From the NCBI GenBank assembly GCA_029940695.1, contig JAPYUP010000008.1, positions 1-54,755 on the forward strand: 54,755 nucleotides of DNA. Direction: 5' to 3'. The notes below the pieces were generated by a model. It was not told where the DNA came from, searched no databases, and was given only the letters and a program-made list of their open reading frames with translations. Made by a program: the position numbers and the translations under genes. Shown in pieces: positions 2,638 through 11,896 of this stretch. Positions within the stretch are counted from its first letter, which is position 1, and every line of letters begins with the position of its first letter. Source of the DNA: Candidatus Thalassarchaeaceae archaeon. Lineage in GTDB: Archaea; Thermoplasmatota; Poseidoniia; Poseidoniales; Thalassarchaeaceae.

Positions 2638-5600
2638 GTGTACAGGGGTGTCAGTTCAGCCGTCGTGATGACTCTGCTCCTGCTCCTGCCTGGGTGCACC
2701 GGGTTACTCGACGATGAAGTCGAGACTGTACCCGCGGTGGTCACATGCGAGGACGACCCGAGCCAGCCCGGCTGCTTTGAGGAAGTGATTACTGAGGATG
2801 ACTGCTCATCGACAGAGGTGTTCGCCGGCGAGTACTGCAGGCTTATGCTAAGGCCTGAGATGCTCGATTTCGGTGAGCCCTCGATTACCTTGGTTGTTGG
2901 AAGCCAGATGCAGGCACTGACACCCAGCTTCTACGGCGATGCCCCTGAGGAGTGGCTAGTCAACCCGAGCCTTCCCGCAGGAATCTCCCTAGACCCAGAA
3001 TCAGGGGTCATTTCCGGCACCCCCATTGCCGAGTCACAGGGTATGACTCACACGATTATATCGACCAACGCAGCAGGCTCCGCCTCAGACACCATACAAA
3101 TCACAGTCCTTCCCATCGCACCTCAATCGATTTCATACCCTTCTGAAGCAATCCACTGCACCATGGAACAGGAATGCACACTGCAAGCTCCCGAAATCAC
3201 CGGGGGGACTCCAGTTGACTGGGTCATCGAACCGCCTTTGCCAGAGGGGCTGGCCATTGAGGAATCAGGTTCGATTACGGGCGCTCCAATGTCGATCGGC
3301 GACTCGAACCACACCATCACTGCGTCCAACGCCGGTGGCAGCGCATTCGACACGCTACGCATCATCACACTCCACCAGCCGCCCAAAGCCATCGACTACG
3401 GCGCGCAGTCATTCATCCTCACATACGGTGAACAGACCTCTATCACCCCGAGCACCTCGGGCGGCGAAGCGACATCTTGGTCAATCGACCCAGATCCACC
3501 TCTCGGAATGGAGTTCATGCAGGACGGGGCCATCGTGGGAGCTCCACTGGTTATTCAGGACCCACAGAGCTACTCAATCACAGTCATGAACACCGGCGGC
3601 TCTGTGACGACTACCATCACTATCGAAGTCTGGGACATTCCCGTCTGGGAGCTATCTTACTCGCCCTCCAACTTCGACCTCACTCAGGGGGACAGCATCG
3701 GGACCATCTCCCCTCAGTGGAGCGGAGGCACCCCCGCCTCGTGGGAAGTCGAACCGCCTCTGCCCTCCGGGTTCCACTTCGAAGCATCCAACGGGATTGT
3801 TAGCGGAACTGCGCTTAACCTACAAGAATGGAGCAGTCACACTATCTGGGCCAACAACACGGGAGGCAGCGACTCGATGCAAATTAGATTCAGGGTCATC
3901 AGCCAGCCGCCCACCGACATATCTCGGCCGAGCTTCGAGTTCACACTCGAGGCCAACGAGAGCGTACTCATCCCTGTCATTAACGTCGGTCCAGCAATAG
4001 ACACTTGGGAGGTCAGCCCGCCCCTGCCGTCCGGGCTCGCCCTCCTGTCAAACGGGACCATAGAGGGCACGCCGGACAAACGGACTGACTGGGTGCAGTA
4101 CACAATTTGGGCCAACAACACCGGTGGCTCGGACGGACAAAGCCTCTGGATAGCCGTCCACGACCTATCTGCAGACCAGTCCGACCTGCTTCGCGGCATG
4201 GGCAACACGAACTGGGGGGGCTGGCCATCACCAATCCTGCCAATAGGAGAGTGGGCTTTTCCGGTAGGATTCACACAATCGGGATACGGCTCCACCATCC
4301 CCGTCATCTCGGCCAGCCACGTCGGCCGGGGTAAGATGCTGGGCTACGGTCACGAGAGTTGGGTCGACGGCGCGGGACCTAAGGAGACTGCCTTCTCGCT
4401 CCAAGCGGTCGAGTGGGTCTGCGGCGAGAACGCCGACGTCGGGCTGGCCTACGGGGCTGGTTACGATGGCTTCGAGGACGAATTGGAGGGCGAGGGCCAC
4501 ACTGTCCACATCTCCGTCACACCTGACAATCTGTCAGGCATCGATTGCCTGCTCGACGAGTTCTGGAACGGTCACGACGATACGGACAATCAGAAACTCG
4601 TCGACTTCATGCTCGTCGGAGGCGGCCTGATAATGGGGGGCCATGCTTGGTACTGGTCCTACTCCAACAGCGATGTTTCCCACAACTACCCAGGCAACAA
4701 GATCGCCAAGACCACGGGGCTGTTCGTCTCAGATGGATGGGGGTACAACAACGTCGATTTCAGAGTCATTCCGCACGAGCTGACCCGCCCGCAGGCAGCC
4801 ATCGAGGCGATTCGCGCTGACCGCATTGTCAACCAGACTCTGTCCGCAGACGACGCGGCGATAGCCGACGCAACCCTCTCGATTTGCACTGGCGTGGTCG
4901 CTCTGGACTTCCACGGCTTTTGGAGCCCTCTGCGCGAGGTCGTCAACCAGACTGGCTGGACGATTATCGAGTATGGGACACTGTGGGAGAACGTCGGCTA
5001 CGACTTGGGCGAGGACCCCATCGCTGACACCCTGCTAAGGGTCGAGGCCGCCCTGACTCAGGGCCTCCCCGCCAATGAGCTACCAGCACACCCCAGCCAC
5101 GCGGAGTTCCCCGGCGAGGTACCGGCGAACGCCACTAGAGTCACACGCGACGTGACCATCGATGGCAACCAAAGCGGACTGCCAGGAAACTTCGGCTACT
5201 CCAGCGCCAGTGCCCACCTGCGCATGACGACCGGCCTGTACGCAGCCCCAGGCGAGGTTGTCACCGTGACGCTGCCCTCCGCAATCGTCGACACAGGAAC
5301 CTATGTGCTAGTCGGTGCCCACAGTGACAGCCTGTGGGACAAGAGCCAGTTGCACAGGCACCCGCAGATAGTCCGATGGTGGTACGTCGACAGCGTCACC
5401 ATGGAGGTCGGCAACTCCTTCGGCGGACCGATTTACATCGCCATCCAAGCCGACTCGACGCTCGGCAACTTCGATGTGACCATCTCGAACGCGATTAAGG
5501 CGCCGCGGTACATCCACGGCCAGACCGACGTCTACCAGTGGCAGCAGCAATATCGAAACGATCCTGCCCCCTGGGCCGAGATCGGCAGTGGCCAGTTCAT

Positions 5601-6630
5601 CCTGACTGTGCCGAGCCACGAGATCAGGGACCTCGACAATCCCGAGGAGCTGATGGACTGGTGGGACGAGGCTCTGGGGATGGAGCACGCGATCTACGGC
5701 TACCTGCCCTGGCCAAGGGTAGAGAGGGCAGTATTCGACGCTCAGATCTCCGCAGGCTGGATGCACTCCGGCTACCCGTTCATGGCGCACGACCTGAGTG
5801 TCGCAGGAGTGGTCAACGTCTCATACATGAGCGAGAACGGAGATTGGGGGATGTTCCACGAGCTCGGTCACAACCACCAGTGGATGCCTTCCACCCTGCC
5901 CGGGACCACGGAGACCGGCTGCAACTTCGCCAGCGTCTATCTGATGGAGGAGCTCGTCGACCCGCCCAGCCTACGCCCGGCGAACCCCTCGAGGTCGTAT
6001 TTTGAGGATGGTTCCAACATCAGCAATTGGTCGGTCTGGACCGCCCTCGACACTTTTCTTATCGTGAAGGAGGAATGGGGCTGGGGGCCGATTACAGAGG
6101 CACTGATCGTCTACTACACTCTCCCGGCATCAGAGGTCCCGAGCACTGATGACGAGAAATTCAACGCGTGGGTCATACACTTGTCGAACGCCACAGGATA
6201 CAACCTCGCCCCGTACCACGCAGCGTGGGGGTTCCCCTTGAATCAGGATACCTACGACGCACTGGCTCACCTCCCCGTCTGGGTAGACGACCCACTTCGC
6301 GGCGACTTCTTCGTTTACGATGCAGTCTTGCGAAACTTGCAGGCATCCAACGTAACCGCCAACTCAACCGTCGTTTCGTGGGAGACTTACGACAATGGTA
6401 CCAACACGACTCTGACCCTGCATTATGGAACCTCGGACGGCGGCACCCAATCGTCATCATGGGCCAATAGTGTGAATCTCGGACCCTCTGAGGTAGGCAA
6501 TGAATCTCAGGAATTGACTGGGCTGGAATGCTGTGGGACTACGTACTATGCACGCATCGAGGCCACCCATGGGGAAGGCGAAACTTGGTTCGGCCCAATC
6601 TCTTGGGTGACCGATTACTTACCCGACTGA
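2638..6630 (+). CDS. Lipoprotein with Ig-like (He_PIG) repeats, TCAF-like region and M60-type metallopeptidase domain
   Basis: 1330 residues from a GTG start. The N-terminus is a lipoprotein signal with a clear lipobox (LLLPGC, cysteine near residue 20), so it should be tethered outside the membrane. Residues ~80-510 hold five Ig-like repeats of putative He_PIG type, each with a 'PLPSGL...G.I.GTP' core and ending near N(N/A)xGGS. Residues ~518-800 resemble the region that precedes the peptidase in TCAF/FAM115-like proteins. The peptidase domain carries HELGHNHQ at about 1074-1081 (HExxH zinc motif), the M60/enhancin signature. An FN3-like domain ends the protein. M60 enzymes typically attack glycosylated proteins such as mucins, so action on glycoproteins of marine particles is inferred. 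The last 16 bases overlap the convergent acyltransferase gene. Confidence 0.85.
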   Translation: MYRGVSSAVVMTLLLLLPGCTGLLDDEVETVPAVVTCEDDPSQPGCFEEVITEDDCSSTEVFAGEYCRLMLRPEMLDFGEPSITLVVGSQMQALTPSFYGDAPEEWLVNPSLPAGISLDPESGVISGTPIAESQGMTHTIISTNAAGSASDTIQITVLPIAPQSISYPSEAIHCTMEQECTLQAPEITGGTPVDWVIEPPLPEGLAIEESGSITGAPMSIGDSNHTITASNAGGSAFDTLRIITLHQPPKAIDYGAQSFILTYGEQTSITPSTSGGEATSWSIDPDPPLGMEFMQDGAIVGAPLVIQDPQSYSITVMNTGGSVTTTITIEVWDIPVWELSYSPSNFDLTQGDSIGTISPQWSGGTPASWEVEPPLPSGFHFEASNGIVSGTALNLQEWSSHTIWANNTGGSDSMQIRFRVISQPPTDISRPSFEFTLEANESVLIPVINVGPAIDTWEVSPPLPSGLALLSNGTIEGTPDKRTDWVQYTIWANNTGGSDGQSLWIAVHDLSADQSDLLRGMGNTNWGGWPSPILPIGEWAFPVGFTQSGYGSTIPVISASHVGRGKMLGYGHESWVDGAGPKETAFSLQAVEWVCGENADVGLAYGAGYDGFEDELEGEGHTVHISVTPDNLSGIDCLLDEFWNGHDDTDNQKLVDFMLVGGGLIMGGHAWYWSYSNSDVSHNYPGNKIAKTTGLFVSDGWGYNNVDFRVIPHELTRPQAAIEAIRADRIVNQTLSADDAAIADATLSICTGVVALDFHGFWSPLREVVNQTGWTIIEYGTLWENVGYDLGEDPIADTLLRVEAALTQGLPANELPAHPSHAEFPGEVPANATRVTRDVTIDGNQSGLPGNFGYSSASAHLRMTTGLYAAPGEVVTVTLPSAIVDTGTYVLVGAHSDSLWDKSQLHRHPQIVRWWYVDSVTMEVGNSFGGPIYIAIQADSTLGNFDVTISNAIKAPRYIHGQTDVYQWQQQYRNDPAPWAEIGSGQFILTVPSHEIRDLDNPEELMDWWDEALGMEHAIYGYLPWPRVERAVFDAQISAGWMHSGYPFMAHDLSVAGVVNVSYMSENGDWGMFHELGHNHQWMPSTLPGTTETGCNFASVYLMEELVDPPSLRPANPSRSYFEDGSNISNWSVWTALDTFLIVKEEWGWGPITEALIVYYTLPASEVPSTDDEKFNAWVIHLSNATGYNLAPYHAAWGFPLNQDTYDALAHLPVWVDDPLRGDFFVYDAVLRNLQASNVTANSTVVSWETYDNGTNTTLTLHYGTSDGGTQSSSWANSVNLGPSEVGNESQELTGLECCGTTYYARIEATHGEGETWFGPISWVTDYLPD

Positions 6631-7691
6631 CTGAAGCGCCTCAATAGGCTCTCGAAGGAGATGTCGGGAATGTACTTCTCGTGCGCTACCGCTAGTGGAA
6701 TCCAAGCCAGGGTGTGCCCGATGGTGACCGCGAAGGCGGGAACAACTGCCAGCCTCGCCCCATCGAGCATCATTGCAGCGGCACCTAAGACTGCAAAGTG
6801 GGCGACGTAAATAGTGAGCGAGAGCCGACCTGCCGGCTCCAAGGCGGCCAACCGATTTCCAAGCGAGGGCCCCCCGCCGGAAGCCTCGTCTCCCTCCAGC
6901 AGCCTCATTGTCAGCATTACCATCGTCCCCGAGACCACGAGGAATGGCATGCTCGCTGGGAAGAAAGTCAGGACCGCCTCCCCGGAGGTCAGAGCCCAGT
7001 CGATTTCCTCGACCACGGCTACCATCACGGTCAGTGATGTGGCTAGCAGTCCAATGGCGATGTTTCGCTCCCTGATTTTGGGTTGTCCCCCGAGATCGTG
7101 GATTATCGTGCCCAGCAGAACGTAGAACATCCACGGGACCACAGGGTAGGTGCCGTTCCAGAGTAGCCTCGCTACCCACTCTGTGGAATTCCCGGCATCG
7201 ACCCTCTCAAACCATCCCAACTCAGGACCCGCCGCACCCCCCAGTAGCAGCGGAGAGACTACCATCACTAGCAACAGAGCCGACCTAGAACCGATGCTCA
7301 GACGCACGAGGAGCGGCGCTAGGATTGCAGCGATTGCCAGAAGGGTCAGCACGCCCGGGGTGTGCCACTCGAACCTGCCCCCTCGCTCGACGTTGAGAAG
7401 CACATTCACTAGGAGCTGGCACAGAGTCAGGACAGCCACTCTGGGCAGCAGCCATCCCGCCCAGTCCGCCGACGAGTACCCCTCCTTGGTGCGACGATGT
7501 GCGCTGTGGTACATCCCCCAACCCGAAATTGTCACGAACATCGGAGCGGCCATGCCTCCGAAGGCGGCAGCGACGAAAGCCGCGGGATGGCCTACAGTGA
7601 TGCCCTCGGGAGGCGCGATTGCTGCAGTATGGACCTCGACCATGCACAGCACGGCAACTGCCCTCATCCTGTCGATGTGGCGCAATCTCAC
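6615..7691 (-). CDS. Multi-pass membrane acyltransferase-like protein
   Basis: 358 residues from a GTG start. The opening (RHIDRMRAVAVLCMVEVHT) matches the 'D..R..AI..V..VHT' start of acyltransferase-3 and heparan-glucosaminide acetyltransferase-like (DUF1624/DUF418) families. About ten hydrophobic segments follow, including GMAAPMFVTISGWGMY in the second. Members of these families move acyl groups across or at the membrane onto sugars or other surface molecules; the substrate here cannot be told. The 3' end overlaps the convergent lipoprotein gene by 16 bases. The family call rests mainly on the N-terminal motif and topology. Confidence 0.55.
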   Translation of the reverse strand: MRLRHIDRMRAVAVLCMVEVHTAAIAPPEGITVGHPAAFVAAAFGGMAAPMFVTISGWGMYHSAHRRTKEGYSSADWAGWLLPRVAVLTLCQLLVNVLLNVERGGRFEWHTPGVLTLLAIAAILAPLLVRLSIGSRSALLLVMVVSPLLLGGAAGPELGWFERVDAGNSTEWVARLLWNGTYPVVPWMFYVLLGTIIHDLGGQPKIRERNIAIGLLATSLTVMVAVVEEIDWALTSGEAVLTFFPASMPFLVVSGTMVMLTMRLLEGDEASGGGPSLGNRLAALEPAGRLSLTIYVAHFAVLGAAAMMLDGARLAVVPAFAVTIGHTLAWIPLAVAHEKYIPDISFESLLRRFSQSGK

Positions 7692-7829
7692 CGGCTCACT
7701 CCCTCCTAGCTCCCTTACTTGTTCACCACAGGCGAGTAAACTCCCGCCCAGCCCAGGACGATTCTTGGGAGGTCACGGACCTCTGTCCGGATGCCTAGGT
7801 TCAATACTTCGGCAAAATCGCCACCGCGC

Positions 7830-10643
7830 CTACTCGTCCTCGTCGGCACTAGGTAGGGGTTGATCCTCACTTCGCATCTCTCGGCCCCCATATGCAATCA
7901 ATCCGATTGCGGCGACGTAGAGCAACGCGATCACGTAGGTCAGGTAAGACAGGGGAGGCCCCGCATCACCTCCGAAATTGGTCCAACCCATTGGGCCCAT
8001 GTTGTCGGTTACGCTGCCTCTGAATGATGCAGCGGTTTCGTCATCTAGTTCGGAGAACGAGCGAATCTCAAACACTGGATGCGTGTCAATCGAATCTTCG
8101 CTGAAGTCCGGGTTCGTACTTCCAGGGCCTCGCAGGTCATAGTGGAAGGCAGCGAGGACATCACCATACATCACTGCGCCAGAGACCTTCTCGACACGCA
8201 TCGTTATGTCCGCGGCAAAATAAACCGGTAGTGCACCTGGCAGGACGTCGATATATGTTCGAGAGCCAATTAGCTTGGCCTGAATCTGGTGCTCCGCGGG
8301 ATCTAGGACCAGATGGTGCTCGACCATGTCTATGCCCTTGAACGTGACATCCCCGACGACAGTAGACTCAGCGATTGCATAGCCCACCGCGTTCAGCCTG
8401 AACGGGGAGCTTGCGTCATTGACCAACGGAGCCGACTTGCCGCCAATGGTACCGGCAACCACCGTGTTCGGGTTGCCTACGTGGTCGGAGAGCAGGCCGT
8501 AGGTAGCTTCCTCGTTGTAAGGGGCTCGCCACGGCAGGTGCTCCGTCATGCCATAGGTCTCGTTGGCATCGCACTCGACATTGTACTCGGCATTGCCGTC
8601 GGAATCCAACTTGAAGTCACACAGGCCGTCGCCATCAGAGTTGATGTAGCCCTGTGAAACGCTCTGGCCGATGGTGTCGCCCTTGGTGCTCATGACGTAG
8701 ACAGAGAAATCCCCCGTGCTGACAGAATCGGAGCCGAAATACGTCTCATTCGTCTCAAGGCTAACCCAGCCTACGGCCATGTTAGAGATGTCTCCGTAGA
8801 CGACATCTGCAACGATAGGATCCCTCCATCCATAGAGCCAGTTGCTCACCGACTGCGTGGTGTATGCCGAACCCCCGTACTGGAAGCCCAGCAGGGCGCC
8901 GATAACCTGCTCGAACATGAAGTCCTTAACCCAGCTACGCAGAGCTGCTGCCTCTGACTCGGAGATGTCATAGGCAGCTGCAACAAATGCATCGTTCCAT
9001 GGCACCACTTCTCCTCCTGTCTCAAAGGCCGTCCGATCCTCGTTCATCGGCATTGTCGTACCCGTGAGTTCGTTGTACATGAAGACGGGAGCGAAGTCGC
9101 CGGTGAGGGCCCAGTCCGAGGTGTAGAGGATTTCGCGCGTCTTCTCGACGCTGAGGTCGATCGATCCTTCGTAGTCCGCACGGTTCAGGCCTATCACCAG
9201 GTATCCCCCTGCGATTGGCTCCACACCTCCGAAGGAGGTCTCCCACCATAGCTGCGCGTTAATCGTTCCAGAACCACCGACCAGAATCATCGGGAATTCG
9301 GCGGGCGTCCCGAGCATGCCAATCCACGCCCCGGCCCAGTCGGACAGACCCAGCAGCTGAGTCAGTCCGATGCTGTATGATACCATTGTGCCGAATGCGT
9401 CGGACTGCGCGCCTAGCAGGAACAGGGCCACCCCGTCAAGGGGAATCCCATTGAAGTCCACAGTGGTTAGCAGTCCTGCCCCTAGGCCAGTATCGGGATC
9501 GATTCCGAACATCAGGTACTCTAGGGCCTCTGGGTTCGCAATGTCGACTCCGCTGAGCTCGTTAAGGCGCTGCCTGAGGTCATCGGCGGTACTCAGGTCA
9601 GCACCGCCTCCGTGCTCGAGGAACTTGGAGCCTGCCAGGGCGTACACTGCCCAGTCCATGTTAGTAAGCGTAGCAGCTTTAGTGTCCCAATTGTCAGCGC
9701 TGCTGTATCCGAGCAGGGTCGCTCTAGTCGCTGTGGTGGCCTCGCTAGGCTCCCCCATCCCGACAATCAGCATCGGCCCGATGTCACAGGTCAGGGCAAT
9801 GCAGATGCCGGTCGACGGGTCGACTGCATCGAACATTATGCTCCGGGCAGAAGTCGAGAAGTCAGGGCTCGCATCGCTCGCGCCGCTCTGAGCGAGCCAG
9901 TTATCGTAGGCCCCGTCCAGAACAGCTGCCGGTGCCATCGAATCAGCAACCTCCGCCGATAGGTTCAGTCCTGCCTGCATCTGAGCTGACGCACCTGTTA
10001 CCATCCCCGCTATGTCATGGGCAGCCCATATGCTGGGCGCCTTGTTCTGCAGCTCGTTCTCCATCATCTTGTTCGCGAATCCGGCCTTGGCGAAGATCTC
10101 GCCGTAGGTTATACCCGTAGCGAGGCCCGCTATCCTCTGGGTGTTCCACAGGATGTTCACGTTCGTGACTTCGGTATCGCCAGAGACGGAGACCACCTCC
10201 GTCCCGTTCTCGTCCGTCCACGTGCAGTTCTCGCACCACTCGAAACTGTCATATTCTGAGTAGGTGATCGTGCTAGCAGTCTCGTCGAATTCAAGAACCT
10301 CTCTAGTGGTCGTGACCTCGTAGACGAATGGCCCCATCTTCTCAAAGGCCTGAGATGGGTCCTCGGAGGACAGCGCTGACTGGTCCGTAATCGAGTAAGC
10401 GAAGTAGACCCTTTCACTCGTCGAAACCGACCAGTTGCTCGGATACTCGTTTCCATCTTCGTCTTCCCAGTATGCATCGAAGTCCACCCGCTCGTCCGTA
10501 GAGCCAGTGACCTGCTCCTCCACCGCCTCTTCGATCAGTCCGTCGACGAAGCCTGTCACGGCGAGTCCTATGTTCACTAGCAGGAGCAGAGCCCCGATTC
10601 CTATCGCAATGGTCGGTTTGTTGTCCATGGTTAACACACTCAC
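7830..10643 (-). CDS. CD36/LIMP-2 (class B scavenger receptor) family homologue with large internal insertion
   Basis: 937 residues. It has CD36 topology: one membrane helix near each end (about 10-31 and 898-920), a large extracytoplasmic domain and a short acidic tail. CD36-like blocks occur in order: MGPFVYEV at 103-110 followed by a 'tITYSEYDSFEW' strand; NWLYGWRDP with GWRDP at 605-609, like LLWGYRDP of animal CD36; SPFRLNAVGYAIAES followed by a VTFKGI strand near 745-775; and ADITMRVEKVSGAVMYGD near the end. Between the first and second blocks lie about 370 residues absent from animal CD36. Animal members bind lipids and lipoproteins; lipid uptake or sensing here is only inference. The start is GTG at 10643, with an in-frame ATG at 10628 as alternative. 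No obvious operon partner. Confidence 0.8.
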   Translation of the reverse strand: MSVLTMDNKPTIAIGIGALLLLVNIGLAVTGFVDGLIEEAVEEQVTGSTDERVDFDAYWEDEDGNEYPSNWSVSTSERVYFAYSITDQSALSSEDPSQAFEKMGPFVYEVTTTREVLEFDETASTITYSEYDSFEWCENCTWTDENGTEVVSVSGDTEVTNVNILWNTQRIAGLATGITYGEIFAKAGFANKMMENELQNKAPSIWAAHDIAGMVTGASAQMQAGLNLSAEVADSMAPAAVLDGAYDNWLAQSGASDASPDFSTSARSIMFDAVDPSTGICIALTCDIGPMLIVGMGEPSEATTATRATLLGYSSADNWDTKAATLTNMDWAVYALAGSKFLEHGGGADLSTADDLRQRLNELSGVDIANPEALEYLMFGIDPDTGLGAGLLTTVDFNGIPLDGVALFLLGAQSDAFGTMVSYSIGLTQLLGLSDWAGAWIGMLGTPAEFPMILVGGSGTINAQLWWETSFGGVEPIAGGYLVIGLNRADYEGSIDLSVEKTREILYTSDWALTGDFAPVFMYNELTGTTMPMNEDRTAFETGGEVVPWNDAFVAAAYDISESEAAALRSWVKDFMFEQVIGALLGFQYGGSAYTTQSVSNWLYGWRDPIVADVVYGDISNMAVGWVSLETNETYFGSDSVSTGDFSVYVMSTKGDTIGQSVSQGYINSDGDGLCDFKLDSDGNAEYNVECDANETYGMTEHLPWRAPYNEEATYGLLSDHVGNPNTVVAGTIGGKSAPLVNDASSPFRLNAVGYAIAESTVVGDVTFKGIDMVEHHLVLDPAEHQIQAKLIGSRTYIDVLPGALPVYFAADITMRVEKVSGAVMYGDVLAAFHYDLRGPGSTNPDFSEDSIDTHPVFEIRSFSELDDETAASFRGSVTDNMGPMGWTNFGGDAGPPLSYLTYVIALLYVAAIGLIAYGGREMRSEDQPLPSADEDE

Positions 10644-10647
10644 CTTT

Positions 10648-10686
10648 CCACGAGCGGGTGCTTGACATTAAGCGTTACACTCGTGG
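10648..10686. repeat. Inverted repeat upstream of the CD36-like gene
   Basis: CCACGAG (10648-10654) and CTCGTGG (10680-10686) form a perfect 7-base inverted repeat separated by 25 bases, starting 5 bases upstream of the GTG start. It could be an operator or a 5'-UTR stem; function is not shown. Confidence 0.35.
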
Positions 10687-10802: not shown

Positions 10803-10879
10803 GGACCCGTAGCTCAGTTGGTTAGAGCGCTCGGCTCATAACCGAGTGGTCATCGGTTCAAATCCGGTCGGGTCCACCA
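10803..10879 (+). tRNA. tRNA with CAT anticodon (elongator Met or Ile2)
   Basis: Complete cloverleaf: acceptor GGACCCG/CGGGTCC, D-arm GCTC...GAGC, anticodon stem CTCGG/CCGAG with loop CTCATAA, T-arm ATCGG-TTCAAAT-CCGGT, discriminator A and an encoded CCA. The anticodon is CAT. It lacks the three G:C pairs of an initiator anticodon stem, so it is elongator Met, or Ile2 read after agmatidine modification of C34. The G1-C72 and A73 acceptor end leaves Ile2 quite possible. Confidence 0.95.
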
Positions 10880-10960
10880 CGGCTCCCTACTCTCATTTCG
10901 ACGCGCCCCGCGTCCGACCCGGGCGAAGCCTCAAATACGTTCTTAGTGGGGCATTTTGCG

Positions 10961-11896
10961 ATGAGCGCGTCCTTCAGAGTCCCTCTGATGATCATGACCG
11001 TCTACTTCCTGAGCCTTTGGAGCGGAGTGGCGGCAGTTCAGGCCCAGACCTCTCCAGACGTCTCATTGACGTGTGATCAGCCACAACCGATAGACGTCTA
11101 TCCCGGCGCCACCCGGACCACCATCATCTACTGCACCCTCTCCAACCCCACCACTTTCTCCGAGAAGGTCGAGTTGACCTATCAGTCGGGCGTGATTGCG
11201 GTGGCAGGGCCCGGCTCGGCTACAGTCCCTCCTGGGGACACCTCCTTCCAGGTCTCCGCGCGTGCTGACCTGAGGATGCCCGAGGGGCAGCAGGTAGTCA
11301 CGATTACAGCCGTTGTCACCCAGTGGGGTGGTGGGCCAGTCACCGGGGTGACGCAGCCGACCGAGTCGAAGGTGATGACCGTCTTCAAGCAGTTCAGCAG
11401 GCTCAGGGTTGGCTCTGATATCGCGTTCCTGCAATTGCGCCCCAAAGTCGACTACACCCTAATCTTCGATGTCTACAACGACGGCAACGCCCGTGACAAG
11501 TTCAACGTCGAGATTTCGAACTATGACGAACTTAACGACGAAGGCTTCCAGTTGAGTCTGCCCTTGGTCTCACAGGAGATCGACTCTCTAGCACCTCCGG
11601 AGAAGTTTCGCGTCCAGATGAGGACACCGAAGAACCAAGGCTGGACTGACAAGTACTTCTCGCTGCAGTTCAAGGCGACATCGGAGTACTCGGTGCGTAC
11701 GGAAGGCATCCCCAACTACCAGATTCAGGTCATGACTCTCTACATCCGCGGAATCTACCTCCCTGGATTCGAGCTGGTTGGCACGATGATGATGGCGGCC
11801 TTGGCTGGTGCGGCAGTGGGGAGAGGCGCCCGGTATGGCGCCCCCTTGGTCGACCACGAGGGCAATATCGAGCCCCTAGGCGCCCGTTTGTTATAG
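10961..11896 (+). CDS. Secreted, C-terminally membrane-anchored beta-domain protein
   Basis: 311 residues from ATG 10961; an in-frame GTG lies at 10946. A signal peptide (about 1-28, ending VQAQ) is followed by beta-rich regions with the character of NEW3/CARDB-like Ig domains: 'VTLxNPTxFSEKVELTYQSG' and 'FDVYNDGNARDKFNVEISNYDE'. One hydrophobic segment near 265-285 (LVGTMMMAALAGAAVG) and a short tail follow. The topology suggests an extracellular domain held by a C-terminal anchor. No enzyme motif is seen. It starts about 80 bases after the tRNA gene. Confidence 0.65.
   Translation: MSASFRVPLMIMTVYFLSLWSGVAAVQAQTSPDVSLTCDQPQPIDVYPGATRTTIIYCTLSNPTTFSEKVELTYQSGVIAVAGPGSATVPPGDTSFQVSARADLRMPEGQQVVTITAVVTQWGGGPVTGVTQPTESKVMTVFKQFSRLRVGSDIAFLQLRPKVDYTLIFDVYNDGNARDKFNVEISNYDELNDEGFQLSLPLVSQEIDSLAPPEKFRVQMRTPKNQGWTDKYFSLQFKATSEYSVRTEGIPNYQIQVMTLYIRGIYLPGFELVGTMMMAALAGAAVGRGARYGAPLVDHEGNIEPLGARLL

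Follow-up and report, generated by a model that had tools for sequence, protein, structure and literature searches.

The window analysed here, a stretch of 54,755 nucleotides from a Candidatus Thalassarchaeaceae archaeon (contig JAPYUP010000008.1), carries a gene for a two-helix surface protein of the CD36 superfamily, set among genes for a multi-pass acyltransferase, an M60/enhancin-like metalloprotease, a choice-of-anchor T family protein and a tRNA (Table 1). The source genome is a 1.42-Mb bin, 94% complete. Relatives of the protein bear the names Thalassarchaeum, Thalassarchaeaceae or Euryarchaeota, that is, Marine Group IIb; these names place the protein in the family Thalassarchaeaceae of Marine Group II (Ca. 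Poseidoniales) and agree with its description as archaeal in the first-pass annotation. No other archaea are as abundant in the surface ocean as Marine Group II.

Table 1. Genes and protein segments at the CD36-type locus, with positions in the window
Feature	Residues	Position	Strand	Basis
M60/enhancin-like (SslE-like) metalloprotease, 1330 aa		2638..6630	(+)	Pfam, NCBIfam, synteny
Multi-pass acyltransferase (Acyl_transf_3 / HGSNAT-like)		6615..7691	(-)	Pfam, synteny
CD36-superfamily two-helix surface protein		7830..10643	(-)	ORF, Pfam CD36, relatives
C-terminal membrane helix	~896-920	7884..7958	(-)	hydropathy
C-terminal half of CD36 ectodomain	~576-895	7959..8918	(-)	LIMP-2 alignment, sequence blocks
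Apical insert	~173-575	8919..10127	(-)	LIMP-2 alignment, helix prediction
N-terminal half of CD36 ectodomain	~60-172	10128..10466	(-)	Pfam, PDB profile match to LIMP-2/CD36
N-terminal membrane helix	~10-37	10533..10616	(-)	hydropathy peaks
tRNA-Met(CAT) gene, between the CD36 and choice-of-anchor T genes		10803-10879	(+)	
Choice-of-anchor T family surface protein		10946..11896	(+)	NCBIfam NF041740, synteny

The gene and its neighbourhood

Counted from the listed GTG at 10643, the open reading frame encodes 937 aa. The real start is probably the ATG at 10628, five codons inside, because a purine-rich stretch precedes it and relatives begin at the same place; the resulting product of about 932 aa begins MDNKPTIAIG, with GGAAAGGTG shortly upstream. 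Hydropathy is maximal at the two ends of the protein (residues 10-37 and 896-920), and the insert contains one weaker peak (276-298, up to 1.74). Beyond the C-terminal helix the chain ends in a short, acidic tail on the cytoplasmic side. The blocks GPFVYEV (104-110), LYGWRDP (603-609), SPFRLNAVGYAIAES (746-760), VTFKGI (766-771) and ITMRVEKVSGAVMYG (813-827) were all located; both the two-helix topology and the order of blocks claimed in the first-pass annotation thus hold. Six cysteines are present (137, 140, 281, 286, 675 and 691), two of them inside the insert.

The acyltransferase gene lies 138 nt downstream of the CD36-type gene on the same strand, and this partner is kept in many close relatives; at the Poseidoniaceae loci no acyltransferase neighbour was found. 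In animals the lysosomal membrane contains both HGSNAT and LIMP-2, itself a relative of CD36, and the echo of that pairing in an HGSNAT-like gene adjoining a CD36-type gene is probably a coincidence. The M60 metalloprotease gene also sits beside the CD36-type gene in close relatives, and the nearby position of the choice-of-anchor T gene is conserved among relatives. No fatty-acid activation or transport gene that would tie the protein to lipid import was found beside the CD36-type gene.

CD36 membership, apical insert and predicted fold

A Pfam-A search with the window protein returned a single match, to CD36 (PF01130, residues 80-166, E=3.8e-8), scoring 32.7 bits where the curated cut-off is 26.5. 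In a broad alignment from Marine Group II, PF01130 matches each of the 24 members (best 1.6e-20), and every family other than CD36 matches one member at most; relatives score as high as 73.5 bits, and a few close relatives score under the cut-off. None of 14 control genomes has a PF01130 match. The CD36 homology that the first-pass annotation proposed to check with this profile is therefore borne out for the window protein and more strongly for its relatives. A profile built from the 24-member alignment, searched against 177,635 PDB sequences, retrieved only LIMP-2 and CD36 chains at E<1e-4. The window protein aligns with LIMP-2 in three colinear blocks (69-144 to LIMP-2 38-114, 565-658 to 132-215 and 794-820 to 382-408), of which the N-terminal one is strong and the second and third are weak taken singly. 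For the C-terminal half, second or third Pfam CD36 stretches are present in relatives; that half alone gave no match in the PDB. A phmmer search of the PDB with the single window sequence yielded no CD36 chain and nothing else of relevance, so the family profile was required.

It is very improbable that the CD36 matches are short convergent motifs without common descent. The modest margin of the window protein above the Pfam cut-off and the outcome of the single-sequence search would fit such a reading, but profile, Pfam and fold searches are concordant, and the C-terminal half is weakly tied to PorA/LmcA, itself a family of CD36 fold. Membership of the window protein in the CD36 superfamily is established. 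With CD36, LIMP-2 and SR-B1 (PF01130) it shares the terminal helices, colinear sequence blocks in each ectodomain half and a Pfam score above the cut-off. It differs from these eukaryotic proteins in being archaeal and in carrying an apex insert of about 400 residues unrelated to known domains, and in some of its relatives the C-terminal half is nearer to PorA. The three-disulfide pattern of metazoan CD36 members is absent, the six cysteines of the window protein being its own; that pattern is restricted to metazoan members and is not found in non-metazoan eukaryotes (PMC10715195).

The insert is best measured between conserved motifs. The stretch bounded by the LNI and LLWGYKD motifs is 41 residues long in LIMP-2, whereas its equivalent in the window protein, ending at GWRD, has 441 and therefore about 400 extra residues. 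The first-pass annotation had placed the insert correctly, before GWRDP, and its length of about 370 residues was slightly low. The insert is predicted to be mostly helical, is conserved across Marine Group II and has no relative in Pfam or the PDB. Among 28 aligned relatives its length ranges from 140 to 471 residues. In Poseidoniaceae genus g125 it measures about 250 residues, with the N-terminal part missing. The shortest form, 140 residues in genome G031, represents secondary loss or an assembly fault, since a genome of the same genus (L128) has 429.

The usual three-helix bundle of the apex is absent from the window protein, and the helical insert stands in its place. This bundle is usual but not obligatory, varying among long-ectodomain eukaryotic members, and expansions of eukaryotic class B scavenger receptors all occur at the alpha4/alpha5 apex (PMC10715195). 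By alignment with LIMP-2, the archaeal insert occupies the same membrane-distal alpha4-alpha5 site. The closest counterparts in architecture are the expanded-apex SR-B proteins of oomycetes, ciliates and Dictyostelium, which share a long helical alpha4-alpha5 expansion on a CD36 barrel and an ectodomain of more than 500 aa; these are eukaryotic, their expansions are reported to have arisen independently in each lineage, and the archaeal proteins lie outside that survey (PMC10715195). Within the insert, the last apex segment (residues ~405-495, window 9159-9431) resembles residues 540-620 (8784-9026), the two ending in FGxxDP and LxGWxDP. The self-similarity score is 17.1, against 16.8 for the best of 150 shuffles, and an internal duplication of this segment is possible, if marginal.

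AlphaFold models were made for the window protein and one relative from input alignments without Poseidoniaceae sequences, and both were compared by Foldseek with 350,542 PDB chains. In both, pLDDT is mostly below 50 in the barrel part; in the insert of the window protein it is mostly 60-96. For the window model, places 1-14 are all CD36, LIMP-2 or LmcA, and outside matches in the listed top 50 never exceed a probability of 0.13. For the relative's model, places 1-17 are all CD36, LIMP-2 or LmcA at a probability of 1.00, the lowest E being 1.3e-3, and place 18 drops to 0.06; a comparison with viral protein models gave nothing above 0.23 among the matches listed. TM-scores of the Foldseek matches of these low-confidence models are low (0.1-0.3), and none reaches E<=1e-3. 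The CD36 fold named in the first-pass annotation is thus the fold of every top match, on models whose barrel is of low confidence. A closed CD36-type barrel with a tunnel is likely in the window protein, a grade set no higher because of the pLDDT of the barrel and these TM-scores.

Distribution, descent and the link to PorA/LmcA

The family profile matches 124 of the 146 genomes of the class, and every carrier listed belongs to one of the two Marine Group II families; of the genomes tested from Marine Group II, about 90% carry the gene. The sister family f3, which is probably Marine Group III, gave no match to the family profile in eight listed genomes, and among 244 Thermoplasmatota genomes PF01130 has no match outside the order. 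No relative of the window protein was found in IMG/VR or in the plasmids searched. The family tree has deep branches that mostly agree with the split between the two Marine Group II families, and it includes paralogues. Within Marine Group II the CD36-type gene is old and spread across the order. Recent horizontal transfer was considered and rejected on the depth and course of the tree and on the local GC content, which does not set the gene apart from its surroundings.

One genome (L054) carries a head-to-head pair of divergent CD36 paralogues, at 5419-8028(-) and 8115-10667(+), 86 nt apart. The first groups with Poseidoniaceae, and a transfer between the two Marine Group II families is therefore probable. 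An apparent bacterial occurrence, on a contig labelled Gemmatimonadetes (L016, PBPC01000098.1), was rejected as a mis-binned Marine Group II contig, since it carries the same M60-acyltransferase-CD36 block (58-66% identity) and the Pfam match is found in none of 101 Gemmatimonadetes genomes.

The CD36 fold is known from bacteria through LmcA, by structural resemblance (PMC8972800). LmcA, a protein of the DUF3068/PorA family, structurally resembles CD36 and LIMP-2 (PMC8972800, PMC9678360), with DALI Z of 11-12 to LIMP-2/CD36 (PMC8972800). The PorA/DUF3068 proteins (PF11271; LmcA is NCgl2760 and PgfA is MSMEG_0317) share with the archaeal family the terminal membrane helices and a CD36-like barrel, which in the archaeal proteins is predicted; there is a weak sequence match in the archaeal C-terminal half, and LmcA is among the top Foldseek matches. 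They differ in that LmcA has no three-helix apex and that the N-terminal half of the archaeal protein matches CD36 instead of PorA. PF11271 does not match the window protein, and its best score among the relatives is 22.4 bits against a cut-off of 29.5. The PorA model matches the C-terminal half in 4 of 24 relatives, weakly (best 8.9e-4). In profile-profile comparison (hhalign), the Marine Group II CD36 core aligns in register with archaeal PorA units at E=0.0045, compared with 0.6 for the reversed control and 0.66 for the insert alone; its score of 27.4 exceeds that of the best of 60 column shuffles, 24.0.

Four Poseidoniaceae loci of genus g125 (L124:1469-3646(-), L125, L126 and L127) encode a shorter CD36 protein of about 730 aa. 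A g125 protein matches CD36 over residues 12-161 (whole protein 1.3e-16) and PorA over 562-687 (8.9e-5) in one chain. Such chains, matching CD36 in the N-terminal half and PorA in the C-terminal half, are the best link between the two families at the level of sequence.

Proteins of PorA/LmcA type also occur in other Thermoplasmatota families, f3 included (L099-L111, L113 and L114); a PDB search with one of these proteins reached LmcA at 6e-6. Unlike the Marine Group II CD36 proteins, these chains often hold two or three CD36-fold units in tandem between two membrane helices. In PMC9678360 the DUF3068 domain is described as confined to actinobacteria; the PorA matches in several Thermoplasmatota families contradict that claim. 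A tentative account of descent, which we consider possible rather than probable, takes the Marine Group II form as intermediate between the carriers of PorA/LmcA and eukaryotic CD36: the root of the family would be prokaryotic, either seeding the eukaryotes or sharing a pre-eukaryotic ancestor with them, and the apex would be an independently evolved archaeal capture device.

Function and wider meaning

The function favoured here, and held to be rather probable, is that a CD36-type barrel stands on the outside of the cell membrane with a helical apex that captures material, the barrel channel passing lipid inward for beta-oxidation. One helix at each end would hold the protein on the outward face of the cell membrane. 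The ends of the ectodomain would form the asymmetric beta-barrel of CD36, as sequence and the Foldseek matches of the weak models suggest, and between alpha4 and alpha5, as placed by alignment, the predicted helical domain of about 400 residues would replace the small three-helix bundle. Ligands of the apex could be hydrophobic compounds, proteins or particles that bear lipid; fatty acids or other lipids could then move through the hydrophobic channel to the cell membrane and supply beta-oxidation in the host. Lipid handling is proposed by homology with CD36/LIMP-2/SR-B1 and with LmcA/PgfA, and of all steps the direction of transport, taken as import, is the least certain. Genes for fatty-acid degradation occur in Marine Group II (PMC6461757), and the source genome has four acyl-CoA dehydrogenases, which makes import the first choice of function.

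The main rival, possible but clearly less probable, is that the same fold builds the envelope, moving lipids of the cell itself, or its lipid-linked glycans, to the outside as PgfA/LmcA of mycobacteria and corynebacteria do, together with the neighbouring acyltransferase. PgfA has a part in the transport of trehalose monomycolate (PMC9678360), and the PorA matches in the C-terminal half, among the relatives and in g125, point the same way, as does the place of LmcA among the top Foldseek matches. The same-strand acyltransferase kept in many relatives would suit this role, but it could accompany lipid import or outward traffic alike and was not found at the Poseidoniaceae loci. The near-universality of the gene in the order favours envelope building too, and suits an envelope housekeeping role equally well as import. 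What weighs against outward carriage is that the N-terminal half matches CD36 and not PorA, and that LmcA lacks a large outer apex, a usual feature of CD36 proteins that recognise ligands (PMC8972800).

It is improbable, though less so than convergence, that the protein is an adhesin or receptor with an apex for binding particles, cells or secreted enzymes and a barrel that is only a stalk. LIMP-2 binds glucocerebrosidase. The very large apex domain would fit this role, as would the M60 metalloprotease and choice-of-anchor surface protein in the conserved block, and particle attachment has been inferred for Marine Group II (PMC6461757). Known members, however, keep the barrel channel together with receptor function (PMC10715195), and many invariant residues of the archaeal family lie in the barrel-forming ends. 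Lipid import through a capturing apex and barrel channel remains the preferred reading.

A survey restricted to eukaryotes followed class B scavenger receptors back to the last eukaryotic common ancestor (PMC10715195). The presence of the CD36 family in nearly all sampled Marine Group II means that it is not confined to eukaryotes, contrary to what that survey implies. In the open-access literature no paper was found that connects Marine Group II, Poseidoniales or Asgard archaea with CD36, the sole co-mention of CD36 and Asgard archaea found there being in an AMPK review; Pfam already flags the Marine Group II proteins. What appears to be new is an archaeal CD36 family with an apex domain of its own; the CD36 family itself was already known.

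The natural variants of the apex, from 140 to 471 residues, offer material for asking what role it plays. At the level of sequence, the Marine Group II proteins appear to connect CD36 to PorA/LmcA, and if the account of descent given above is true, the CD36 receptor family is not a eukaryotic invention. For the organisms themselves, an archaeal CD36 provides a concrete route by which Marine Group II could acquire the lipids of particles.
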